This document shows positions 13,678 to 33,732 of a stretch of 64,000 nucleotides of DNA, one piece after another. Origin of the DNA: Robiginitalea aestuariiviva (GTDB lineage: Bacteria; Bacteroidota; Bacteroidia; Flavobacteriales; Flavobacteriaceae); assembly GCF_029537735.1 (NCBI RefSeq), contig NZ_JARPUQ010000002.1, positions 798,240-862,239 of the forward strand, in the 5' to 3' direction. The translations under genes were made by a program, and so were the position numbers. The notes beneath the pieces were generated by a model, which ran no database searches, had not been told where the DNA came from, and saw only the letters and a list, made by a program, of their open reading frames with translations. How positions within the stretch are numbered: the stretch's first letter is position 1; each line of letters begins with the position of its first letter.

Positions 13678-14289
13678 TTATTCGTCCCCCGTGCCCATAA
13701 ATTCAGGCATATTCAGGTTCTCCGCACTGTTTACCCCTTCGCGGATCAGGACCTTCCGGGCGGTGCGGAAAAGGATTTTCAGGTCCAGCAGAAAAGACTG
13801 GTACTCTACATACCAGACGTCCAGGGCAAATTTCTCGCTCCAGGTAATGGCATTGCGCCCATTGACCTGTGCCCAGCCGGTAATCCCGGGTTTTACCTCG
13901 TGCCGCCTGCGCTGGAAGTCGTCATAGCGCTCCAGGTACACCGTTAACAGGGGGCGGGGGCCCACCAGGCTCATATCGCCTTTCAGGACATTGATCAGCT
14001 GGGGGATCTCATCCAGGGAAAACTTGCGGATAAAGGCCCCAACCGGGGTAATCCGCTGTTCATACGGCAGTAATTCCCCCTGCGCATCCGTGCGGTCGTT
14101 CATGGTCTTGAACTTAAAGATGCGGAAGATTTTTTCGTCTTTCCCGGGGCGGGGTTGCAGGAAGAAGGGCTTTCCCCGGTTGGCGACCAGCAGCAACAGG
14201 GTCAGGATAAGCAGGATGGGTAAAAACACCAGCAATCCCAACAGGGCGAACCCGAAATCCATCAGCCGTTTCAAATGGCGGTACTCCAT
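13678..14289 (-). CDS. Small phosphoglycosyl transferase (PglC-like), copy 3
   Basis: 203 residues, closest to copy 1: shared TPVGAFIRK, Asp93-Glu94 in SLDE, KGDMSLVGPRPLL, KPGITGWAQVNGRN and a LDVWYVE segment. One N-terminal hydrophobic hairpin anchors it in the inner membrane. The gene starts two bases after the end of the PLP aminotransferase gene at 14292, so the two are co-transcribed. Likely transfers a sugar-1-phosphate to undecaprenyl phosphate. Three such genes within 2.7 kb is unusual, because one repeat unit needs only one initiating enzyme. Confidence 0.92.
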   Translation of the reverse strand: MEYRHLKRLMDFGFALLGLLVFLPILLILTLLLLVANRGKPFFLQPRPGKDEKIFRIFKFKTMNDRTDAQGELLPYEQRITPVGAFIRKFSLDEIPQLINVLKGDMSLVGPRPLLTVYLERYDDFQRRRHEVKPGITGWAQVNGRNAITWSEKFALDVWYVEYQSFLLDLKILFRTARKVLIREGVNSAENLNMPEFMGTGDE

Positions 14290-15503: not shown

Positions 15504-16667
15504 TTAATTCCGGGATTCCCGCTCCAGCCGGCGATACTCCTGCAGGATGCAATCCCAGACAAAGCGGCGCTCATACCGGTCCCCGATCAGCTGGCGGTAG
15601 GTTGCCGGATTTCCTGCCGGGGGGTCGGTTAATACCCGCTTCATTTCGGTGTACAGGGCATCCGCGTCCTTGGGGGGTACCAGGGTACCGTTTTCCCCTT
15701 CCCGGATAATCTCGTTACAACCGTTAATATTAGATGCGATACTATAAAGTCCCATGGCCCCGGCCTGCATCACCACGTTGGGAAACCCCTCCCGGTAGCT
15801 CGGAAAAACAAAACTGTGGGAGAGGGCCATAAACGGGCGGATGTCCGATTGCCACCCCAGCTCCAGGATGGCATCGGTGTCCTGTATGGCCTGGTAGGCC
15901 CAGGGCTCCAGGGGGTCCAGCTCGTTTTCGTACGGGCCGATAAGCAGCAGGCGGGTCTCTGGGAAATCGGCATGGACCCTCAGGAAGGCCTCCAGCAATT
16001 CGTGGATGCCCTTGTCCCGCACCAGGCGGCCCACATAGCAGTAAACATACTGGCCGGGTTCCAGACCCAGGGATTTCCGTAGGGCCTCCCGGGCTTCGCC
16101 AGACACCTGTGCCGGGTCAAAAAAGTCGGTGTCGATCCCGTTGGAACTGCCCTGCCCGAGTACCTGCAATTTGCGGGCCGATGCAAACCGGTGCTCCAGG
16201 GCAATCTGCCGCAAGCCTTCGGAATTGGGGTAGACCCGGGTAGCGCAGCGGTAAGTAAACCATTCCACGGCGTTCAGCAATGTTCGTTTCGCGCCCCGGG
16301 CTTCCACCAGGGGCATGCCGGCAATGGTATGCAGGCGGTGGGGTACGCGGGCCAGCCAGGCCGCAAACATCCCCAGGGTGCCTGCCTTGGGGGTATGGGA
16401 GTGTACCATATAAGGGCGTTCCCGCCGGAAGATGCGGTAGAGCTGCCAGAGCGCCCTTAGGTCCTGAAAGGGCGTTATTTTCCGGGTCATGGTTACCGGG
16501 ATCACCCGAATGCCCTCCTGTTGGGCCACCCGCTCCAGGCCCGGGCCCGGGGAGGAGATCCCCACCACTTCATAATGCTGGCTCATAAATCGGGACTGCC
16601 CCTGGAGTAATCCCCCCAGGGAGATGGGAACGGTGGTGATGCGGATGAGTTTCCGGGGTGTTTCCAT
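15504..16667 (-). CDS. Glycosyltransferase, GT4/GT1 family
   Basis: 387 residues with two Rossmann-like halves (GT-B). Visible are the glycine-rich ISLGGLLQG loop near the start, HSHTPKAGTLG, a VGRLVRDKGI segment that begins the C-terminal donor domain, and SYREGFPNVVMQAGAMG followed by SNINGCNEII. In the E-x7-E position the second glutamate is a glutamine. Predicted to extend the lipid-linked repeat unit at the cytoplasmic face. It has its own leader with a -7 box (16717-16724) and stands opposite the beta-helix lipoprotein gene. Confidence 0.9.
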   Translation of the reverse strand: METPRKLIRITTVPISLGGLLQGQSRFMSQHYEVVGISSPGPGLERVAQQEGIRVIPVTMTRKITPFQDLRALWQLYRIFRRERPYMVHSHTPKAGTLGMFAAWLARVPHRLHTIAGMPLVEARGAKRTLLNAVEWFTYRCATRVYPNSEGLRQIALEHRFASARKLQVLGQGSSNGIDTDFFDPAQVSGEAREALRKSLGLEPGQYVYCYVGRLVRDKGIHELLEAFLRVHADFPETRLLLIGPYENELDPLEPWAYQAIQDTDAILELGWQSDIRPFMALSHSFVFPSYREGFPNVVMQAGAMGLYSIASNINGCNEIIREGENGTLVPPKDADALYTEMKRVLTDPPAGNPATYRQLIGDRYERRFVWDCILQEYRRLERESRN

Positions 16668-17014: not shown

Positions 17015-19069
17015 ATGCTGAAGAGCACCCCCAAGCAACTGATTTTCATGGCCACCTTCCTGGCCCTGGGCACGGTTTTTTCATCCTGCGCGGACGAAGA
17101 CCTGATGTCTGAATTGTTTGAACAGCAACAACAAAATACGCCGGAAGAACCCGGTTCCGAAAACCCGGATACCCCGGAAACCCCTCAGGGTTCCAACCAG
17201 GATCCGGGAGACCCCGTAACCTTCGAAAGCCAGCTGGAGATTAACAGCACCCCCTGCGATTTTGGCCTGGATACCCTGCAGGCCAACGGCACCCTGGCTT
17301 TGGAATGCAGCCTGGACCTGGGCGGGCAAACCGTTACCCTGCCAGCCGGGGTTACCCTGGAGTATGCCGGGGGGCAGATCATCAATGGAACGCTGGTGTT
17401 TAATGGGGGGTATATTGACGGGAAACTCATGAACAAGGATCTGACCCTGGAAGGTAGTGTTTCCCTGACTTCGGATACCTTCCAACTCTTTCCGGAGCGG
17501 TGGGAGTTGGTGCAGGGGCAGACTACATCGGAAATTGCACAAAGGAACAATGATGTGCTAGAAGGGTTGATGTTTTACACCAAAGAGTTGGGTGCAAGGA
17601 CCTTCGTTATTGATGAGTTTGATGCTTATTTTGAAATCTCCAAAGTAACAAGTACCACTACTAATCAAAATTTTTATAATACCATTGAGTCTATTAATGT
17701 GCCCGGAAATTTCAATCTTGAAATGTCAGAAAGAACCTTTCTAAGAGTATTTCCAAACGATCGAGAAAATGGTGGAACCTTGCTTGCTGCTAGGGAGGTT
17801 TCCAATGTTGTTATTCGTGGTGGTAATCTTGTGGGTGATAGGGATGAGCATGATTATTCCAAGTCAAATCCAGGTGAAGGTGGGAATCATTTGTTCTGGG
17901 CCCATGGTGCATCTAATGTACTTGTTGAAGGTGTAAACATGTCTATGGGTTCTGCTGGGGCTTTAGTCATTAACTCAATTAACTTCACCTTCCAGGACAA
18001 TTATATTCCGTCAAATGGAATTACAGTTCGAAATTGTGTCTTTAAGGACAATAGAAGGATGTCGACTGCCATTACAGACGGGTTTAATCTTGTTATTGAG
18101 GATAACACCTATATTGACACAGGACTTGACCGGCAAAATTCTGATGGTGGGGTTGTTGGATATGCAATAAACGTGGAAGCGGTGAGAGCTAGAGATGCAT
18201 CCGGCAACTTCATTTATTACGAACGAGCTTATGATATCTTAATTCGGAATAATTTCGAAAGAGGTAGTCGAATTGGGGCAATTACTGTTAGTGTTGGTGA
18301 AAATGTAACAATTGAAAACAATGACCTTGAAAACAAAATTACCTATTCACTTACTTCAGGAACCAAAATCTTAAATAATAGATTGGTTGCTTCAACTGAA
18401 TCAGCTAAAACCCCAGCCATTCTTGCAGCAGGAAATGGTGAAACTGTTTTCAATAATCAAATATCCGGAAACTATATTGAGGGTTATGGAATTGGTATAG
18501 CAGCTTATCATGGGGAGTTAATAATTAGCAATAATACATTGGTAAATAATGGAAATGGTATACAACTTAAAGAATTGAATAATACAGATATTTATAACAA
18601 TTCAATCTCAAGTTCGCAATCCGCAAGCCGCGGTATTTCCTTTCAAATTTCACATGGGAATGATGTTAGGATTTTTAATAATGATTTTAATGTTATAGCA
18701 AATCATTTATATTTTGTTCAGGTTAATCAGGAGATAGATTTTATAAACAACCTGATTCAGATTTATGATAATCGGCTTAATTCTAGTGCGACTTCAATTT
18801 TTTCTGTAACAAATGGAATAATATTTGAGCGCAATAGTTCATTTGGCCGTGTCCAAATTTCCAATTCTTCTTCCGTAAGACTTATTGAAAACATTATTGA
18901 TTCGGCGAATTCTCACGGTGTTAATTTGACAGGAATAAATCGAAATATTGAATTAAATTCCAATACAATTGAATATCCTGCAAACACCAATTTTCAGTGT
19001 ATATATATTGATAACGCAACTTCTCCTACGGAAGTTTTATTGGATAATAATGAGTGTATAGGAAGCTAA
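17015..19069 (+). CDS. Right-handed parallel beta-helix lipoprotein with chimeric composition
   Basis: 684 residues. A lipoprotein signal ends at VFSSC (Cys25). An acidic, Pro/Glu-rich linker (about 40-70) leads to a conserved start of beta-helix around residues 80-150 (FGLDTLQANGTL, then repeated short strands with NG turns). From about residue 175 the body is many Asn/Ile-rich coils such as NNTL and ENNDLENK, typical of pectate-lyase-like helices that bind or cut acidic polysaccharides. The first 525 bases are GC-rich like the surrounding core, while everything after about 17540 is strongly AT-rich, so the gene is a composite. Probably a surface or periplasmic lyase, epimerase or binding protein for the polymer made here; no catalytic residues could be assigned. 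Confidence 0.82.
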   Translation: MLKSTPKQLIFMATFLALGTVFSSCADEDLMSELFEQQQQNTPEEPGSENPDTPETPQGSNQDPGDPVTFESQLEINSTPCDFGLDTLQANGTLALECSLDLGGQTVTLPAGVTLEYAGGQIINGTLVFNGGYIDGKLMNKDLTLEGSVSLTSDTFQLFPERWELVQGQTTSEIAQRNNDVLEGLMFYTKELGARTFVIDEFDAYFEISKVTSTTTNQNFYNTIESINVPGNFNLEMSERTFLRVFPNDRENGGTLLAAREVSNVVIRGGNLVGDRDEHDYSKSNPGEGGNHLFWAHGASNVLVEGVNMSMGSAGALVINSINFTFQDNYIPSNGITVRNCVFKDNRRMSTAITDGFNLVIEDNTYIDTGLDRQNSDGGVVGYAINVEAVRARDASGNFIYYERAYDILIRNNFERGSRIGAITVSVGENVTIENNDLENKITYSLTSGTKILNNRLVASTESAKTPAILAAGNGETVFNNQISGNYIEGYGIGIAAYHGELIISNNTLVNNGNGIQLKELNNTDIYNNSISSSQSASRGISFQISHGNDVRIFNNDFNVIANHLYFVQVNQEIDFINNLIQIYDNRLNSSATSIFSVTNGIIFERNSSFGRVQISNSSSVRLIENIIDSANSHGVNLTGINRNIELNSNTIEYPANTNFQCIYIDNATSPTEVLLDNNECIGS

Positions 19070-19083
19070 ATTGCTACTGATCC

Positions 19084-20457
19084 TTATTTTAAAAAGTGGT
19101 GAATATTGTTTTTAACAAGGCGATATTTGCCACTTTTTTCTACTGGTATATGGTCTACCCTTTTAAATTTAATCTCCATCTTAGTTCCAACCCTTTCCGT
19201 TAGGTTTTCGATAAATTTTTGTTGATCCGAATCGTCAAAAATATTCTCGTCAACAACGGCATTTACGTGTATGGCTTGTACCTCATTTTGCATTATCTGG
19301 AATTGTAAAACGCCCTTAACTCCTTTAAGACAATTGGAAATGTTGCCAAGATTGATTTTACCAACCTCTTCCGAATAGATATAGTCATTTATTCTTCCTG
19401 AGATTTCCTCAACTAGAGGATTGGCATTTCCACAGTCACATACCTTGTCGGATAAAGTGATGGTATCTCCAATGTCATAACGGATCAGTGGAGTACCATA
19501 AGTGGTAAAAGAAGTTACGACAAGCCTTCCACTTTTGGAGGCTTGATTATTCTCATCCAGCACTTCAAATACACCGCTGCGTAATTCCAAATGCAAATTG
19601 CGTTTTGAGCATTCGAATATAAAAGGAGCGCCTTCGGATGATGCATATTGATCATACATCCGGGTTTTAAAATAGGCTTCTATCTCTGCTCTAATCTCGC
19701 TGGTGACCGTTTCTGCGGTTGGAAAAATAGCTTTAATGGTATTTTTGGGGAAGTCCAAATTGTTTAACCTGCCAAATTTTGCTATTTCGTACATGGTTGA
19801 AGGAAACCCTACCATGTATTCTGGTTTGTATTCGATCAGATTGGCGATGTAAGCAGTCAGGTTTTTCGGGTGAATATGGAAGGTTGAATAGTATCTAACT
19901 TTATATATCCAATCCGTTTTCCAAAATTTATATTTATTCAAATCTCCGGGCGTAAGCAAAGTTTTACCACTAAACCAGGCGGTTCTTTTTCCCAACTTGT
20001 AGCCATGTGCTTTACGAAAGTTATCCAAAATAGCAAACCGCTCTTCTACATCTACAGGACGATAAAGCACTTCAAGAGATTTGCCCGTAGTTCCCCCAGT
20101 TTTTGAAAGGACCCCCTTTTTTTTAGCTATAGTATAGACCTCAGTAAGGTTCTGTCTTATTTGTTCTTTGTTTACAATAGGTAGTAAGCCGATTTGTTCA
20201 ATAGATATACCGGAGACATCTTGTGGAAAAAGCCTTTGGTAGAATGGGGAATGTTTTGCGGCATACTGAACCAAATCCTTGAATTTGCGTTCCTGGATCT
20301 CTTCTATGGCCTTAATCGGATGTTGAATGCTATATTCTTTTAGGAGTCTTCTGTAGTTTTTACCATATCGGATATTGTAAGCCTTAATATTATAAAGGGA
20401 TATCATCAACTCCTGAAGAAAATTAGGACTATTCCTGTATATTTTGTCTAATATCAT
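19084..20457 (-). CDS. CapK/PaaK-like adenylate-forming enzyme
   Basis: 457 residues related to phenylacetate-CoA ligase and the capsule protein CapK. It shows the ATP-binding loop TGGTTGKSLE near 120-130, the YASSEGAPF segment, and RYDIGDT, the usual order of the family, plus a C-terminal small domain. Such enzymes activate a carboxylic acid as an acyl-adenylate. In capsule loci the substrate is generally unknown, and they may supply an acyl or amino-acid group for glycan decoration. AT-rich like its neighbours; ends 14 bases from the convergent beta-helix gene and starts 7 bases after the glycosyltransferase at 20465. Confidence 0.85.
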   Translation of the reverse strand: MILDKIYRNSPNFLQELMISLYNIKAYNIRYGKNYRRLLKEYSIQHPIKAIEEIQERKFKDLVQYAAKHSPFYQRLFPQDVSGISIEQIGLLPIVNKEQIRQNLTEVYTIAKKKGVLSKTGGTTGKSLEVLYRPVDVEERFAILDNFRKAHGYKLGKRTAWFSGKTLLTPGDLNKYKFWKTDWIYKVRYYSTFHIHPKNLTAYIANLIEYKPEYMVGFPSTMYEIAKFGRLNNLDFPKNTIKAIFPTAETVTSEIRAEIEAYFKTRMYDQYASSEGAPFIFECSKRNLHLELRSGVFEVLDENNQASKSGRLVVTSFTTYGTPLIRYDIGDTITLSDKVCDCGNANPLVEEISGRINDYIYSEEVGKINLGNISNCLKGVKGVLQFQIMQNEVQAIHVNAVVDENIFDDSDQQKFIENLTERVGTKMEIKFKRVDHIPVEKSGKYRLVKNNIHHFLK

Positions 20458-20464
20458 AGCTAGC

Positions 20465-21523
20465 CTACGCGATATCGTGATATATTTCTAAATGTTTATT
20501 TACAGTTCGGGTAATATCATACTGCAATGACTTTTCGGCACACCTATTAGCTACCTCTTTATAAAGCTCAGGATCATTTATTAATCGCAATATTTGAGAG
20601 GCCAATTCTTGTTCATTTTCATCTTCAAATAATAATCCTACATCCCGGTTTATCTCCTTTAGGCCATTTACATTGCTTGTAATCAATGGCTTGCCGCTTG
20701 CCAGGCATTCGAGTGAAGAAATAGAAAGGCCTTCAGAGTGAGAAGAAATCAGACAGATATCACTACTTTTTAGGAGTTCCGGGATATCCTTTCGTAATCC
20801 CAGAAAATGAACTCGCTTATTTAGGCCAAGCTCTATTGCCAATTTCTCACATGACTCGCGAAGATGGCCATCTCCAACCAAGAGCAGGTGGATATGATCT
20901 GGTAAATGAAGCAGGGATTTAATAGCTGTTGGCTGGTCCTTAGTAGGATTAAACCTCCCAACCATTATTACTTTTACCGTTTTATCGGTAATACCTTCAA
21001 TCTGTTTTGGTTTGGCGTCGCGAAACCTTGCCAAGTCTATTCCATTTTCTATTACCACGTATTTCGAATTTCTGAGCTTTAACCATGAGGAAAGTGTTTC
21101 TTTGGCTTTTTCGCTTATGGTTATCACCTTCCGATAACGCATGTAAGTAAGTTGCTCTATGGGCCAAAAAAGCAAATTGGATCTACGCTTGTTATAGGTG
21201 CAGTGTTCGGTAACTACAGTCGGTTTGGAAGAAAAGGATAGGGAGAGCCAGTATTGGCTTGGGAAGAGATGGGCATGCACTATATCGAACGCCTTAATCA
21301 TTTTTCGAATAAAAAAAATATTGAGGGGCGAATAAATAGGATATGGACTATATGTAATACTAATGTTGTCATCCAACAACTTTTGTAAAAACATATCTTG
21401 ATTTTTACTCAAAACAAGGAGTTCTACGTGAATACCCTTATTTCGGATAATCGAGGCCATGTCCGCAACAAGTTTCTCGGCTCCTCCAGCTCCCAGGGAA
21501 TTAATAATAAGCAGCAATCGCAT
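20465..21523 (-). CDS. Glycosyltransferase family 4
   Basis: 352 residues, GT-B fold. The N-terminus has the INSLGAGGAEK glycine-rich loop, the middle has VGRFNPTKDQ at the start of the donor-binding half, and SSHSEGLSISSLECLASGKP gives the E-x7-E pair that contacts the nucleotide sugar. The gene overlaps the CapA-like gene by one base (start at 21523), within a tightly packed AT-rich operon. Adds one sugar to the lipid-linked repeat unit; donor not predictable. Confidence 0.93.
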   Translation of the reverse strand: MRLLLIINSLGAGGAEKLVADMASIIRNKGIHVELLVLSKNQDMFLQKLLDDNISITYSPYPIYSPLNIFFIRKMIKAFDIVHAHLFPSQYWLSLSFSSKPTVVTEHCTYNKRRSNLLFWPIEQLTYMRYRKVITISEKAKETLSSWLKLRNSKYVVIENGIDLARFRDAKPKQIEGITDKTVKVIMVGRFNPTKDQPTAIKSLLHLPDHIHLLLVGDGHLRESCEKLAIELGLNKRVHFLGLRKDIPELLKSSDICLISSHSEGLSISSLECLASGKPLITSNVNGLKEINRDVGLLFEDENEQELASQILRLINDPELYKEVANRCAEKSLQYDITRTVNKHLEIYHDIA

Positions 21524-22653
21524 TAGTAAAGATCTTTATCTAAAACTGCTGTGAAAATTTCATGATGGGTCTCACACTTAAAAAGGTTTAAAAGCAAGGT
21601 GTCATGACTCTTCTGCAGGTTCAGTGGTTGTGGGAGAAGCCCCATGGAAATCAATTTCCTTAAATATTTGTTTTTTACTCGCAAAAGGTTTCGGTAACCT
21701 TTACTCTGAGTTTTAATATAATTGCGCCATTGTGCCTCAAATAGATCATCGGTGGTGATAATCCTATTCAACTCTTTAATTCTACTATCAAATTGTTCTT
21801 TTTGCTCGGGCAATAAAACCTTTAACCTAGGGTCTTCCTGCCTGCCCTGATAAAAAGGAATAAGGGCAAAATTTGTATTACCATCGCTTAAGGATAAGCG
21901 CAGGGCCGCCCCTTTGGTCCATTCGCCTTTTTGATATTTCCTTTTAAAGTCAAAAATAAAATTTCCCAAACTGTAGAATATCGGTCGGCCTCTATGAATC
22001 TCATAACCGCTAAAGCAATGTGGGTGATGGGCTACAACAACATCGGCACCTACCTCAATAAAAAACCTGAAAGTATTCCGAACACGTGGTGTAGGTAATT
22101 GATAGTGCTCTCTACCGCCATGATATATAACTATAACAAAATCAGAGGTTTTCCTGGCATCAATAATCTGCTGATAATTTTGAATGAGGTCCAATGGATT
22201 GGCACCTGCCAAAGAATCGGTTGCTGTGCAGAATTCATTCTCTGCAATGTTGATAACGGCCAACTTCTTACCTTCTATGGTCGTTAGAAAAGGTTTTTGG
22301 GCCTCAGTTTTATTTAGATTAGCACCAACAGTTTGAATACCCGATTCTTCACAGACTCGTAAGGTATCTTCCAAGCCTTCGAGGCCAAAATCCATTATGT
22401 GATTGTTTGCCAGCGTTACAAGTTTGAACCCTGCCTCCTTCAAGAAATTTATTGCTGATTCAGGTGCTTTTATGCATGGGCCGGTCTTAACTATTTTAGA
22501 GTTAGAGGAAGTCAGGGGGCATTCCAAATTAGTAATAGCTAAATCAGCCTTATTAATTTCGGGCAAAAGTTCACCAAAAATTTCATTAGGGGTTTCTATA
22601 TAGTTTAGAGTACGATTGATAGGGCAGAAGTCCCCTGTTATAAGTATCTCCAT
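21523..22653 (-). CDS. CapA-family protein (poly-gamma-glutamate synthesis type metallophosphatase)
   Basis: 376 residues with the calcineurin-like metallophosphatase pattern of CapA/PgsA: ITGDFCP at the start, NLECPLT, LANNHIMDFG, and VAHHPHC followed by FYSLGNFIFD. Metal-binding Asp, Asn and His residues are all present. No signal peptide or membrane anchor is seen, unlike B. subtilis CapA, so it may act in the cytoplasm. Members in glycan loci occur without other pgs genes, as here, and their role there is unproven. It lies between two glycosyltransferases in the AT-rich operon and overlaps the next gene by one base. Confidence 0.88.
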   Translation of the reverse strand: MEILITGDFCPINRTLNYIETPNEIFGELLPEINKADLAITNLECPLTSSNSKIVKTGPCIKAPESAINFLKEAGFKLVTLANNHIMDFGLEGLEDTLRVCEESGIQTVGANLNKTEAQKPFLTTIEGKKLAVINIAENEFCTATDSLAGANPLDLIQNYQQIIDARKTSDFVIVIYHGGREHYQLPTPRVRNTFRFFIEVGADVVVAHHPHCFSGYEIHRGRPIFYSLGNFIFDFKRKYQKGEWTKGAALRLSLSDGNTNFALIPFYQGRQEDPRLKVLLPEQKEQFDSRIKELNRIITTDDLFEAQWRNYIKTQSKGYRNLLRVKNKYLRKLISMGLLPQPLNLQKSHDTLLLNLFKCETHHEIFTAVLDKDLY

Positions 22654-22659
22654 TGAAAT

Positions 22660-23565
22660 CTATTTAAGGCCATTAGTTTTAGCCAATATGTAAAAGAATA
22701 GTAGTATTCCTGGGAATAGTGCCAAATAAGTAAGTCCAAGGTTTGGCGATTTATAAAAAAAACTGAAGTCTTTTATCTGAAGTTTGCTGGCCACATAATG
22801 AACAGCATTCTTAAAGCGTTGTTTTAGGGTCCATCCATATTTAATAGCCACTTCTCTGGAATATATAAAACCGCGTGGATGCCTTCTATATTGCTTGAAA
22901 ATATTTAAAGAAGATCCATCTGGCAAATATTCTACAATGCAAACCACTTCATTAAGAATAAACAGTTTATAATCCTGATCTATTTGCAAATAAAGTGACC
23001 CAAGTGGTACGAATCGTTCACCTGAAAAAATTGGATAGGGCTCATATTTTTTAACAACCTCTGTCCTGTAGATAAGTTTCTTGTCGCCTGTTATTTTGAA
23101 TTCATGATACAATTCATTTAACGCTGCTTCTTTAAGCTCGGCTGGCATTTTTGTTCCAATAATCTCTCCATCCTTATTAGCATCCAGGGCAACAATGCCT
23201 GCCAAATGATCCTGGCCCTGTATTTCTTTCCAGGCAAGCGCTATCTTTTCAACCGCATCAGAAGGCATAAAATCATCAGAATCAATACATACATTTAATT
23301 CCGTGTTTATCAGGGCATATGCCGAATTATGCGCCCCATGCATGCCTTGATTTTTTTGATAATGGTAGCGGATGTTTACCTTCTTCTCTTCTATCCAACC
23401 AGCTACCAATTCCCGGGTATTGTCGGTTGAGCCATCGTCAATGATGAGCCATATAAAATCTTTACGAGTTTGGCGGACAAGACTATTATAGCATTGCCCC
23501 AGGCAATATGCCCTATTATAAGTTGGTGTAAAAACCGTTAAGAAAGACATAGAATTATCCTGCAT
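22660..23565 (-). CDS. Glycosyltransferase family 2
   Basis: 301 residues, GT-A fold: VFTPTYNRAYCLGQCYNSL at the start, LIIDDGSTDNTREL for nucleotide binding, and CIDSDDFM carrying the metal-binding DxD-type acid pair. The last 20 residues are hydrophobic and may associate with the membrane. It overlaps the EpsG-like gene by 11 bases, so the two are translationally coupled, a common pairing of polymerase and transferase. Start could also be the second Met, five codons in. Transfers a sugar in repeat-unit assembly; donor unknown. Confidence 0.93.
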   Translation of the reverse strand: MQDNSMSFLTVFTPTYNRAYCLGQCYNSLVRQTRKDFIWLIIDDGSTDNTRELVAGWIEEKKVNIRYHYQKNQGMHGAHNSAYALINTELNVCIDSDDFMPSDAVEKIALAWKEIQGQDHLAGIVALDANKDGEIIGTKMPAELKEAALNELYHEFKITGDKKLIYRTEVVKKYEPYPIFSGERFVPLGSLYLQIDQDYKLFILNEVVCIVEYLPDGSSLNIFKQYRRHPRGFIYSREVAIKYGWTLKQRFKNAVHYVASKLQIKDFSFFYKSPNLGLTYLALFPGILLFFYILAKTNGLK

Positions 23566-24655
23566 AGTAGATGTAATACATTAAGTAGGTAAACGCAAAA
23601 TACGCGGCTATGATGTTGGACATGATTAGCCCTTGATTCTTAAAAAAGCTTCCTTTGAGGATTGGATATATAATGATAATGGCCATCATAAACCAGGACA
23701 GGTAGGCAAACCGGTTAGAATAATTGGCTTGTATAACAAGAATCCAAAACGCATTGCATATCAAATAGGTATTTAATAATCTATTATAAAATGGGTCTTT
23801 GAACTTCTTCTTAATCACAAAAAACCACCCTGCAAAAACAGCGAAAGCAGAATGAAATAAGAAGTCCCAGCGAAATCCAATGTTCGAAGAAGTGCCCTCC
23901 AGACCATCTTCCAGGAGATAGGTCGATGCCCTGTCATCAGCAAACCCCAAACCTGAAAAGAATGCAATCCAAAAACCGCCGGCTATCAAAGAAAGAGGAA
24001 TAGCAATTAACCAACCTTTGAAATATATACTTGGCTTATTAAAAATAAATGTGACGGCATAGGCCAAGCAAGGCAACAATAGTGTTTTGTGGATAGAGAT
24101 GGCGATTAGGAAGAGAAGAGTGTTTATCAAAATGTGCTTTCTGAAGCATACCCCTAATAGAAATAAAGATGTTGCAACGCCATTGCGGACCCCATTAACG
24201 CCATAAGTCCAAAAGGAGAAGGACACCACAAACATGATGAATGCATAGAACCAAAACTTCTGAAAGAGTTTCTTTGATATAAAGAACATTGGTACTATGT
24301 ACAGCGTACTACAAAACGTTAAAAACGTATTAAAGCCAAAGTATTTTGAAAAAAATTTCATCAGGTAATACCAACCCATATCTGGCAATTTATCGGGATA
24401 GGTGCCATGTTGAAAATTCAAATACGCCCGATAATAATTGATAGTGTCACCGAAGTAAACACCACTTATTGGACGTTGTCCTATATAAAAAATCAAAAAG
24501 ACCAGTAATAAATATCCTGAAGTATTAATGAATATCAGGTTTCTTTGATCTGAGGCAGGAATGACAAGTGTGTGGAAATAGGAAAATAGAACCAGGAATA
24601 AACACAGGTTTATATAAATAGGATAATAAGCCTCTAACGAGATAAAATCGAACAC
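23555..24655 (-). CDS. EpsG/Wzy-like polysaccharide polymerase, integral membrane
   Basis: 366 residues with about ten hydrophobic spans, an early YIGQRPISGVYFGDTINYY loop and a VNGVRNGVATSLF segment that resemble the EpsG family. It is the only candidate polymerase in the locus, and one is needed in a Wzx/Wzy-type pathway with the flippase at 29764 and the Wza/Wzc exporter. It would join flipped repeat units at the periplasmic face of the inner membrane. Strongly AT-rich, as polymerase genes of variable polysaccharide loci usually are. Follows the acetyltransferase gene by 11 bases. Confidence 0.85.
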   Translation of the reverse strand: MFDFISLEAYYPIYINLCLFLVLFSYFHTLVIPASDQRNLIFINTSGYLLLVFLIFYIGQRPISGVYFGDTINYYRAYLNFQHGTYPDKLPDMGWYYLMKFFSKYFGFNTFLTFCSTLYIVPMFFISKKLFQKFWFYAFIMFVVSFSFWTYGVNGVRNGVATSLFLLGVCFRKHILINTLLFLIAISIHKTLLLPCLAYAVTFIFNKPSIYFKGWLIAIPLSLIAGGFWIAFFSGLGFADDRASTYLLEDGLEGTSSNIGFRWDFLFHSAFAVFAGWFFVIKKKFKDPFYNRLLNTYLICNAFWILVIQANYSNRFAYLSWFMMAIIIIYPILKGSFFKNQGLIMSNIIAAYFAFTYLMYYIYYAG

Positions 24656-24666
24656 TTATTAATTTT

Positions 24667-31305: not shown

Positions 31306-32583
31306 TTACAACCTACCGTGTACCGGCTCTTTCAGGATTCCTTTCACGTCGTACAGCACGCCCTCCGGTTGGCGCAAGCTGCGGAGGTCCAGGCCCTGGA
31401 AGGCCTTGTGGGCAACGGTTAGCACCACTGCATCAAACGGGCCCTGCGGGCACTCCTGTATGGTTTCCAGGCCGTATTCATGCTGCACTTCCGCAGGGTC
31501 TGCCCAGGGGTCGTACACGGTTACATTCGTACCGTAGTCCTGCAGGCTGCGGATCACGTCCACGGCCCGGGTATTGCGCACGTCCGGGCAGTTTTCCTTA
31601 AAGGTAATTCCCAGCACCAAAACGTTGGCACCCTTGATGTGCACATCGTTTTTCACCATCAGTTTGATGACCTCGGAAGCCACGTACCCGCCCATACTGT
31701 CGTTCAGGCGGCGCCCGGCCAGGATAATCTCCGGGTGGTAACCAAATTCCTGGGCGCGCTGGGCCAGGTAGTACGGGTCTACCCCAATGCAGTGGCCACC
31801 CACCAGCCCGGGTTTAAAGGGCAGAAAGTTCCATTTGGTGCCCGCGGCTTCCAGGACGGAATGGGTGTCTATGCCCATCAGGTTAAAGATCTTGGCCAGC
31901 TCGTTTACAAAGGCGATGTTGATGTCCCGCTGGGCATTTTCGATCACCTTGGCGGCTTCGGCTACCTTGATGGTGGGCGCCAGGTGGGTGCCGGCCGTGA
32001 TCACGGAGGCGTACAGGGCATCTACCTGCTTCCCGATTTCAGGGGTGGAACCGGAGGTGACCTTCAGGATTTTGTCCACCGTGTGTTCCTTGTCTCCGGG
32101 GTTGATGCGCTCCGGGGAGTACCCAGCGTAAAAATCGGTATTGAACGTTAGCCCGCTAACCCGTTCCAGCACGGGCACGCATTCCTCCTCGGTTACCCCA
32201 GGGTATACGGTAGATTCGTAGATTACGATATCTCCTTTTTTAAGCACCTGGCCCACCGTTTCGCTGGCGCGGTACAGGGGCGTCAGGTCCGGGCGGTTGT
32301 TCTTGTCTACGGGCGTGGGCACCGTAATGATAAAGACGTTGGCCTCCTTCAGGTCCTCCAGGGTGCTAGAGGGGTAGAGCCCATTTTTGCCCGTCCAGGA
32401 AGGCAGCAGCACCTCCTGCAGGAGGTGGTCTTCCACCTCCAGGGTGCTGTCCGTGCCCGAGGCGATTTCGGCCACGCGCTTCTGGTTGATGTCGAACCCG
32501 ATTACCGGGAAGCGGGTGGCAAATAGGCGGGCCAGGGGCAGCCCCACATATCCGAGGCCGATTACGGCGATGTTTTGGCTCAT
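31306..32583 (-). CDS. tviB: UDP-N-acetylglucosamine 6-dehydrogenase (TviB/WbpO family)
   Basis: 425 residues from ATG 32583; the frame continues upstream to 32712 but without family similarity. NAD-binding IGLGYVGLPLA lies near residues 8-18. The middle has YESTVYPGVTEEECVP, YSPERINPGD and KVAEAAKVIENAQRD, and the active-site cysteine is in LVGGHCIGVDPYYL. The segments match Salmonella TviB closely. It oxidises UDP-GlcNAc to UDP-GlcNAcA with two NAD+ in the cytoplasm. The next gene is its usual partner, the C4-epimerase, so the product is probably UDP-GalNAcA, the Vi-antigen building block. Confidence 0.94.
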   Translation of the reverse strand: MSQNIAVIGLGYVGLPLARLFATRFPVIGFDINQKRVAEIASGTDSTLEVEDHLLQEVLLPSWTGKNGLYPSSTLEDLKEANVFIITVPTPVDKNNRPDLTPLYRASETVGQVLKKGDIVIYESTVYPGVTEEECVPVLERVSGLTFNTDFYAGYSPERINPGDKEHTVDKILKVTSGSTPEIGKQVDALYASVITAGTHLAPTIKVAEAAKVIENAQRDINIAFVNELAKIFNLMGIDTHSVLEAAGTKWNFLPFKPGLVGGHCIGVDPYYLAQRAQEFGYHPEIILAGRRLNDSMGGYVASEVIKLMVKNDVHIKGANVLVLGITFKENCPDVRNTRAVDVIRSLQDYGTNVTVYDPWADPAEVQHEYGLETIQECPQGPFDAVVLTVAHKAFQGLDLRSLRQPEGVLYDVKGILKEPVHGRL

Positions 32584-32632
32584 ATGCGCGTTTGAATATT
32601 TTGTTTGTTTTAAAAGGCGTTTGGCAAGTAGC

Positions 32633-33640
32633 TTATATAGCAACCTGCAGGTTTTCCCAGTACCAGGATACGGCCTGCTGCAACCCGCGGTTGATGTCGA
32701 ATTCCGGGGCATAGCCCAAAAGGGACCGGGCCTTGTCTACCGAGGCCAGGGAGTGGGGGATATCACCCAGGCGCTCTGGCCCGTGCACGATTTCCACCTT
32801 CCCGATCTCGGGGTCAAAGGCGCTCAGGTATTTTTTCAGCAGTTCCGTCAGTTCGTTCAGGGAAGTCCGCTCCCCGTAGGCCACATTATAGACCTGGTTC
32901 ACCGCCTCAGGATTGGTGGTGGCCAGGCATAAGAGGTTGGCCTGGATCACGTTGTCGATATAGGTGAAATCCCGGGAGAAGGTGCCATCCCCGTTAATGG
33001 TGGGGGACTGGTGCTTCATGAGCTGAATCACGAATTTCGGGATCACCGCGGCATAGGCCCCGTTGGGGTCTTGTTTACGGCCAAAGACATTGAAATACCG
33101 CAGCCCGATGGTCTGCATGCCGTAGGTGCGGGAAAAGACCTCTGCGTACAGTTCGTTTACGTACTTGGTGATGGCGTAAGGGGAAAGGGGTTTCCCGATT
33201 TCATCTTCCACCTTGGGCAGTTTTTCCGAATCCCCGTAGGTAGAGGAACTTGCGGCATATACAAAGCGCTTAACCCCCTGGTCACGGGCCGCTACCAGCA
33301 TGTTCAGGAAGCCCCCCACGTTTACATCGTTACTGGTTACCGGGTCTTTGATGGACCGGGGCACGGAACCCAGGGCGGCCTGGTGCAGTACATAATCCAT
33401 GCCCCGGCAGGCCTGCTGGCAGGTTTCCGCGTTGCAGATATCCCCTTCTATAAAGGAGAATTTAGGGTGGTCGCGGAAGGCGTCCATGTTTTCCGGCTTG
33501 CCGGTGGCAAAGTTGTCCAGGCAGCGTACCGTATTGCCGTTTTGAAGCAGGGCTTCACAAAGGTTGGAACCGATAAAACCGGCACCGCCGGTCACTAAAA
33601 CAGAAGTGTTCGGGTCAAGGCCCGGGGAGGAAGGTTGCAT
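32633..33640 (-). CDS. tviC: UDP-GlcNAc/GlcNAcA C4-epimerase (TviC/WbpP family)
   Basis: 335 residues from ATG 33640 (a TTG at 33652 adds four residues). Extended [14 protein letters not shown] near the N-terminus, [23 protein letters not shown], and [14 protein letters not shown] with the catalytic Tyr-x3-Lys; then [16 protein letters not shown], closely matching TviC. It interconverts UDP-GlcNAc(A) and UDP-GalNAc(A) and acts after tviB, 49 bases away on the same strand. Being GC-rich, both belong to the conserved edge of the locus. Confidence 0.93.
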
Positions 33641-33732
33641 GAAAGTGATCAATTTACCCTCAAAGATGGGGTAAGCCCGGCACTAAACCCAACAAAACTG
33701 TATTAATGTTCGGTTATTCTCGATAAATGGGA

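Follow-up and report, generated by a model that had tools for sequence, protein, structure and literature searches.

The beta-helix lipoprotein gene described here (BH) lies in a glycan locus of Robiginitalea aestuariiviva, on a stretch of 64,000 nucleotides (contig NZ_JARPUQ010000002.1, positions 798,240 to 862,239; hereafter the window) from a genome of 3.2 Mb. We found that the composition of BH changes abruptly within its single reading frame and that, across the Flavobacteriaceae, its N-terminal part (the anchor) and its C-terminal part (the body) covary as two blocks with opposite correlations, the anchor with rpoB and the body with the EpsG-family polymerase of the locus, towards which the 3′ end of BH points in nearly all the loci compared. 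The reading that we favour, with moderate confidence, is that BH is a lipid-anchored protein in which a lineage-following anchor carries a body exchanged together with the glycan cassette; the protein would be located at the cell surface and would likely act as a lyase or hydrolase of the cell's own polysaccharide.

A composition step within one reading frame

The BH frame is intact, comprises 684 codons and encodes a predicted lipoprotein with Pfam matches above the gathering cut-offs for Beta_helix (35.6 vs 25.9 bits) and NosD (35.1 vs 23.6 bits). A preliminary description of the window had placed a change from GC-rich to AT-rich sequence near 17540, inside the gene, and scans of guanine plus cytosine (GC) content and codon usage bear this out. 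The best single change point of total GC between 16.5 and 20.2 kb is 17,532; GC at third codon positions (GC3) changes best at codon 198 (17,606), falling from 0.66 to 0.26; and a synonymous-codon likelihood ratio comparing core genes with the AT-rich glycan genes changes at codon 169 (17,522). All measures thus place the step at 17,522-17,606, a range that includes 17540. Codons 1-197 are core-like, with a GC3 of 0.66 where 0.73 would be expected of core sequence and 0.40 of the island, whereas those after 197 are not (0.26, against expectations of 0.70 and 0.37). As had also been described, the AT-rich stretch continues from BH into the glycan genes, and it reaches about 24,655. The GC3 of the body is lower than that of the five adjoining glycan genes (0.34-0.43), so that a common donor for the body and these genes is not required.

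The step exceeds what chance would give, because the anchor-minus-body difference in GC3 is 0.405 in the window and averages 0.036 (standard deviation, SD, 0.070) in homologues from 41 other genomes. The small positive mean shows that some difference in this direction is usual, and larger values occur in a few genomes (G143, G330 and G223), as might be expected if the step were a local codon-usage effect rather than a trace of recombination. However, the window lies 5 SD above the mean, and the analysis restricted to synonymous codons places the step almost identically, which makes such an effect highly improbable. A gross composition step as a rule for the whole family was likewise rejected, since the window alone shows one.

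Covariation of the anchor and the body

At an E value of 0.001, BH was matched in 35 of 249 and in 53 of 397 genomes of the family, strongly so (E <1e-40) in 33 and 44; the nine genomes of the 53 with weak or partial matches were left out of the counts of BH genomes. A phylum-wide draw of 395 genomes, whose share from outside the family was not broken down, included four genomes with a match at E 1e-20, each of them a member of this family. For Mantel tests, the 57 BH open reading frames (ORFs) yielded 46 genomes in which the anchor of one ORF aligned over 85 residues or more; rpoB was available for 42 of these genomes. Anchor distances (residues 78-180) correlated with those of rpoB (r=0.54, p=0.001, n=42) and scarcely with those of EpsG (r=0.17, p=0.053, n=38). 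The pattern was opposite for the body (residues 200-450), which correlated with EpsG (r=0.57, p=0.001, n=38; 0.58 after controlling for rpoB) and little with rpoB (r=0.14, p=0.035), and residues 451-620 gave 0.47 and 0.08, respectively. With one genome per genus the correlations were 0.53 for anchor and rpoB, 0.58 for body and EpsG, and 0.20 (p=0.041) for anchor and EpsG. The body also correlated with Wzx in nine genomes (r=0.48, p=0.045); of the alternative partners tried, neither the glycosyltransferases GT2_22660 (0.11) and GT4_26363 (0.10) nor the sugar transferase (-0.09) covaried with it.

Trees of the 34 genomes having all four genes or parts gave a similar division. The body and EpsG trees shared 8 of 31 splits (label-shuffle p=0.001) and the anchor and rpoB trees 3 (p=0.002), whereas anchor and body had no split in common (p=1), nor had body and rpoB (p=1); anchor and EpsG shared one (p=0.16), as did rpoB and EpsG (p=0.18). 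The phylogenetic conflict between the two parts for which the preliminary description had suggested a test is thus seen, and the outcome that would have spoken against it, a protein conserved as a whole regardless of the glycan genes, was not. These comparisons suggest that the anchor and the body have had different histories, the former following the lineage and the latter tending to go with the polymerase.

Individual genome pairs were compared as well. In ten congeneric pairs, a group that excludes the Allomuricauda pairs, anchor identity exceeded the background (0.61 vs 0.50, p=0.0008) and body identity did not (0.40 vs 0.36, p=0.21; 0.28 vs 0.27, p=0.56). Conversely, pairs from different genera combine similar bodies with less similar anchors (body/anchor identity 0.80/0.59 in G168/G221, 0.77/0.44 in G026/G217 and 0.71/0.47 in G143/G211); for EpsG the identities of these pairs are 0.69, 0.73 and 0.63, compared with a median of 0.54. 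The tandem BH copies of G359 share 0.84 of body but only 0.40 of anchor residues; the tandem pair of G134 (body 0.94, anchor 0.56) was not used as evidence, as its second copy is without most of the anchor. The anchor nearest to that of the window is in G324 (0.63), whose rpoB is among the nearest (0.94) and whose EpsG is similar (0.62), yet the body identity is only 0.32, which indicates that the body can move without the polymerase; the nearest body is in G223 (0.62).

A history without intragenic recombination, in which whole genes move and the anchor changes more slowly under lineage-specific secretion constraints, would account for the higher median identity of the anchor (0.50, vs 0.36 for the body). 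It would also fit an unselected scan of adjacent windows, in which the minimum at residues 165-195 (0.32-0.34) is only shallow and is equalled by another near residue 570 (0.31), the latter making a further exchange near the C terminus possible. However, cross-genus pairs with a body identity of 0.71-0.85 and an anchor identity of 0.44-0.72 are the reverse of such a rate difference, and both the G359 copies and the composition step of the window argue against it, leaving a merely slow anchor very unlikely.

The place of the junction between the exchanged body and its anchor is indicated by a second unselected scan, in which residues 150-184 couple mainly to the anchor core (0.59, vs 0.24 to the body core) and residues 198-232 mainly to the body core (0.46, vs 0.22 to the anchor core). 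The signal and linker (residues 5-59) couple to the anchor (0.54-0.55), not to the body (-0.02, -0.10). Among pairs that share the body the change point fell within 150-215 in 11 of 12, and among those that share the anchor in 32 of 40, although these pairs were picked for the contrast between their anchors and bodies, a choice that biases the break towards 180-200. The composition change of the window (codons 169-198) coincides with this crossover, and a helix is predicted there at residues 172-191, so that an in-frame boundary between anchor and body is supported at the place first proposed.

The BH locus and a proposed exchange model

The arrangement of BH and its neighbours was counted only for ORFs whose stretch includes the partner gene (41, 39, 26, 39 and 13 of the 57, depending on the partner). 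BH is on the strand opposite to EpsG in all 39 ORFs, with EpsG on its 3′ side in 38, and opposite to the glycosyltransferase GT4_15504 in all 41, with GT4_15504 on its 5′ side in 34. At a threshold of E 1e-30 EpsG was present in 36 of the 249 genomes and BH in 33; both occurred in 28, BH only in 5, EpsG only in 8 and neither in 208 (Fisher p=7e-25; the overlap was counted by hand from the genome lists). In the window and most loci examined BH thus lies within a polymer-making cluster. Seven of the eight EpsG genomes without BH were inspected, two having contigs too short to judge, and the five judgeable loci have no reversed gene of at least 150 amino acids between EpsG and GT4_15504, which suggests that BH is inserted in some loci and not in others, at much the same position. 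No other window gene was matched in three BH stretches (L061, L064 and L079).

Tandem BH copies occur at L093 4185-10872 (G359) and also in L081, L083, L082, L079 and L096. Second copies in G134, G217, G026 and G347 are without most of the anchor module, and that of G134 also without the lipobox.

In the window, TviB-like and TviC-like enzymes, both below the curated cut-offs, suggest that the polymer contains N-acetylhexosaminuronic acid (HexNAcA). At least 24 of the 33 BH genomes have a TviB-like gene no more than 25 kb from BH; among the matches listed, it is farther away in two genomes and on another contig in four. TviB-like genes are common in the family (193 of 249 genomes). The coordinates of BH and the surrounding features are given in Table 1. 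The PaaK/FlxY-like adenylating ligase sits at the end of the AT-rich block, and distant relatives of it recur in other BH loci. Between 24667 and 31284 the GC3 is 0.54-0.59, between that of the AT-rich block genes (0.34-0.43) and that of core genes (0.66-0.75), as if this segment were an older import.

Table 1. Positions of BH, its parts and neighbouring features, counted from the first nucleotide of the window
Feature	Position	Strand	Remark
BH (beta-helix lipoprotein gene)	17015-19069	+	684 aa; strand opposite to surrounding glycan genes
Signal peptide ending at lipobox Cys25	17015-17089	+	sequence rule
Pro/Glu/Asp-rich linker, residues 26-77	17090-17245	+	covaries with anchor, not body
Anchor-side beta module, residues 78-163	17246-17503	+	predicted model; stretch like crAss001 tail fibre gp22
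Beta-helix body, residues 154-684	17474-19066	+	predicted model; tailspike/AlgE/RbmB-like fold
Junction zone, codons 170-207	17522-17635	+	composition change point, interdomain helix 172-191, covariation crossover
Arg276	17840-17842	+	identical in 57/57 aligned ORFs
Arg347	18053-18055	+	identical in 56/57 aligned ORFs
Glu388	18176-18178	+	identical in 57/57 aligned ORFs
AT-rich block: BH body and five glycan genes	about 17530-24660 (genes end at about 24,655)		composition
Polyprenyl sugar-phosphate transferase	13678-14289	-	TIGR03025 E 2.1e-73, below cut-off
GT4 glycosyltransferase (GT4_15504), 5′ side of BH	15504-16667	-	domain match
PaaK/FlxY-like ligase	19084-20457	-	below curated cut-offs
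GT4 glycosyltransferase	20465-21523	-	domain match
PGA_cap capsule-synthesis-like protein	21523-22653	-	domain match
GT2 glycosyltransferase (GT2_22660)	22660-23565	-	domain match
EpsG-family polymerase	23555-24655	-	domain match; gene best tracked by BH body
TviB-like UDP-GlcNAc 6-dehydrogenase (HexNAcA precursor)	31306-32712	-	535.7 bits, cut-off 592
TviC-like UDP-GlcNAcA 4-epimerase	32633-33652	-	397 bits, cut-off 760

In the mechanism that we propose, BH would consist of two units. The first, which ends at about residue 185, is the lineage-following signal, linker and anchor; the second is the tailspike-like beta-helix body, which would be exchangeable. Crossover at the interdomain helix, in a gene whose 3′ end points at the polymerase, would allow the body to be replaced by that of an incoming glycan cassette, with the resident anchor staying in place. 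With this reversed orientation, body and polymerase would lie together on a segment that can be transferred as one, and the type of polysaccharide could change while a matched remodelling protein is kept.

Several observations weigh against this account. In the other genomes the GC3 of rpoB is tracked better by the body (rho 0.83) than by the anchor (0.68), so that composition gives no sign there of a foreign body, and the exchange is clearly exposed only in this GC-rich genome. Both parts stay similar in one congeneric pair (g31) and in the Allomuricauda trio. GT4_15504 is a further partner with which the body covaries (r=0.29, p=0.003). The correlation of the body with EpsG falls to 0.17 (p=0.011, n=28) when only close EpsG are considered, and in the 17 genomes that have every gene it is 0.18 (p=0.043) for residues 200-450 and 0.07 (not significant) for 451-620, which implies that much of the signal is deep. 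Overlaps among the top 5% of 554 cross-genus pairs, of which about 1.5 would be expected in each case, numbered 8 for body and EpsG, 7 for anchor and rpoB, 6 for anchor and EpsG and 5 for body and rpoB, and thus fail to separate the two patterns. Approximately unbiased (AU) tests reject each foreign topology, including that of rpoB for the anchor and that of EpsG for the body, so that neither strictly vertical descent of the anchor nor a strict link between body and polymerase holds. In L064 (G081) and L068 (G228), 75 and 149 kb separate BH from the TviB-like gene of the same contig.

The distance between BH and the TviB-like gene in these two loci could reflect relocation or a second glycan site.

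The genus itself also counts against part of this account. No BH match was obtained at E 0.001 in nine other genomes of the genus (one only 74% complete), the first 190 residues had no match in them either (best E 0.024), and BH and EpsG matches were absent from six 20-kb stretches, from six of the nine congeners, around relatives of the glycosyltransferase and sugar-transferase genes. The candidate view of the whole gene as a genus core with a swapped tail was rejected, as neither part is found in these congeners. By these searches the event in the window strain itself can be neither dated nor polarised, and the anchor does not appear to belong to the core.

As to the preliminary description, its conserved anchor stands as a lineage-following module but not as a component of the genus core. 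Its proposal that the body is swapped together with the polymerase and the transferases is supported family-wide for EpsG and in part for GT4_15504, is weak among close EpsG and does not extend to GT2_22660 or GT4_26363. Its evolutionary idea nevertheless appears, from sequence comparison, to be largely right and general.

Predicted fold, candidate activity and significance

A simple rule finds a lipobox-like Cys in 56 of the 57 BH ORFs (Cys25 in the window). In Capnocytophaga canimorsus the motif C-X-K-(D/E)2 has been described as the optimum signal for surface export (PMC5080379, from the part of the account available). By that species' motif, 12 of the 57 ORFs match exactly, 41, including the window with C-A-D-E-D, have another acidic residue at +3/+4, and 4 have neither.

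The structure model of BH, built from four sequences, has a mean predicted local distance difference test (pLDDT) score of 73.8, with residues 1-75 below 50. Its fold matches among the 50 listed, which begin mostly at about residue 153-155, include the Sf6 tailspike (Z 29.3), AlgE6 (29.0), AlgE4 (28.3), an alginate epimerase/lyase (28.4) and RbmB (27.3), and the Pam1 tailspike matches from residue 137 (30.7). Foldseek gave E values down to 6.8e-8, with PL6 among the matches. In PHROGs the match was to a tail spike (E 4.6e-21), with residues 328-581 as its best stretch. The anchor module alone had no clear fold match (best Z 3.7; best Foldseek E 2.3), and one stretch of it matches the tail fibre gp22 of crAss001 (E 3.4e-5). 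In L101 and L100, long ORFs that resemble phage tail proteins, by eye only, have a stretch like the BH anchor module.

VexL is the Vi-antigen lyase and acts on a HexNAcA polymer. At 9666-11282 of L102, a flavobacterial TviB/TviC locus, a reversed lipoprotein gene instead encodes a relative of PelZ (E 2.9e-20, below cut-off) and VexL (PDB 6fi2, E 1.3e-5). BH itself has no PelZ match at E 0.01 in NCBIfam, which by sequence places it outside the PelZ/VexL pectate-lyase family. At least 18 of the 249 genomes have a PelZ-like gene within 9 kb of a TviB-like gene, none of them a BH genome (P=0.07, not significant).

Tailspike-like proteins acting on the polymer of their own cell are known. WceF of Pantoea stewartii is encoded in its own exopolysaccharide cluster and acts on that polymer, and knockouts are reported to have longer chains (PMC7949094, in the part of the account available). 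BH likewise has a tailspike-like beta-helix in an exopolysaccharide cluster and would by this likeness act on its own polymer. It differs in being a predicted lipoprotein, in its opposite strand and in its lineage-following anchor, and the available part of the WceF account states no mosaic history. RbmB of Vibrio cholerae is a beta-helix lyase in a biofilm gene cluster (PMC11637428, part of the account); BH resembles it in having a beta-helix body in a glycan cluster and in the fold match of its predicted model, and has an anchor module and a lipobox in addition to what that part describes.

Taken together with the BH fold and the lyase relative in L102, WceF and RbmB make a lyase or hydrolase of the cell's own polymer the likeliest reading. 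The body would cleave, or otherwise modify, the HexNAcA-containing exopolysaccharide of its cell, and BH may thereby trim chain length or release polymer; a body acting on the cell's own polymer would have to match it. Two points count against this reading, namely that the Foldseek TM (template modelling) scores are low, fold likeness showing no activity, and that, of the at least 18 genomes with a PelZ-like gene near TviB, only 7 have it on the opposite strand and 11 on the same strand.

AlgE mannuronan C-5 epimerases have a catalytic Tyr/Asp/His/Asp set, and PL6 alginate lyases a catalytic Lys/Arg and a calcium site. Catalytic residues of the BH body could not be identified, as would be expected if, with the same mosaic history, the body were a polymer-specific binder with no catalytic role, tethering the exopolysaccharide of the cell to its surface; the lipobox-like Cys would suit such a tether, and the adhesin PfbA is among the proteins that share the fold. 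However, proteins that cleave or epimerise glycans account for most of the 50 listed fold matches, and L102, whose architecture is similar, has a lyase relative. A conserved site is suggested by Arg276 and Glu388, which are invariant, and Arg347, which is nearly so, in a body whose median identity is 36% (Asn178 is also identical in all 57 aligned ORFs). A pure binder thus seems unlikely. An epimerase of the AlgE kind, altering uronate residues after polymerisation, seems less likely still. The A-modules of AlgE4 and AlgE6 do begin (residues 1-2) where the body begins (154-155), with Z 28-29, and the locus has TviB/TviC-like genes for HexNAcA precursors, but lyases and hydrolases match about equally well (Z 25-31). 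The preliminary description had called BH a serotype-matched partner of the polymer, whether lyase, epimerase or binder; the polymer-facing fold of the predicted model, and a body that follows the polymerase family-wide, are consistent with such a partnership, in which catalysis by a lyase or hydrolase is the more conjectural part.

Phage tailspikes and capsule depolymerases combine a conserved N-terminal attachment part with a horizontally exchanged enzymatic part (PMC6872550, part of the account). BH resembles them in its kept attachment part, its exchanged body and its tail-spike match; unlike in that description, the layout would be used by the cell itself, on a lipid anchor and probably towards its own polymer. 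We tentatively propose, as an idea of slightly less than even probability, that BH exemplifies a flavobacterial "inverse tailspike", in which the lineage-bound anchor is kept and a polymer-matched body is exchanged with the polymerase by recurrent crossover at the domain boundary, so that the polysaccharide type could be switched without losing the match. In the titles and abstract openings listed by our searches, we found neither a beta-helix gene of the BH type in flavobacterial exopolysaccharide loci nor an anchor/body exchange in an enzyme encoded by such a locus. Depolymerases encoded in exopolysaccharide clusters are known (WceF, RbmB and VexL), whereas the anchor/body division was not found described in the literature searched.

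If this account is correct, the tendency of body types to go with polymerase types would provide a pointer, from sequence only, to protein-polymer matching, and proteins that specifically modify the polysaccharide of their own cell could be chosen from genomes even where the sugar structure is not known. It would also make testable how a switch of polysaccharide type avoids a mismatched processing protein, and would suggest that the modular logic of phage tailspikes, a fixed attachment part and an exchanged enzymatic part, has been put to use for the cell's own coat.

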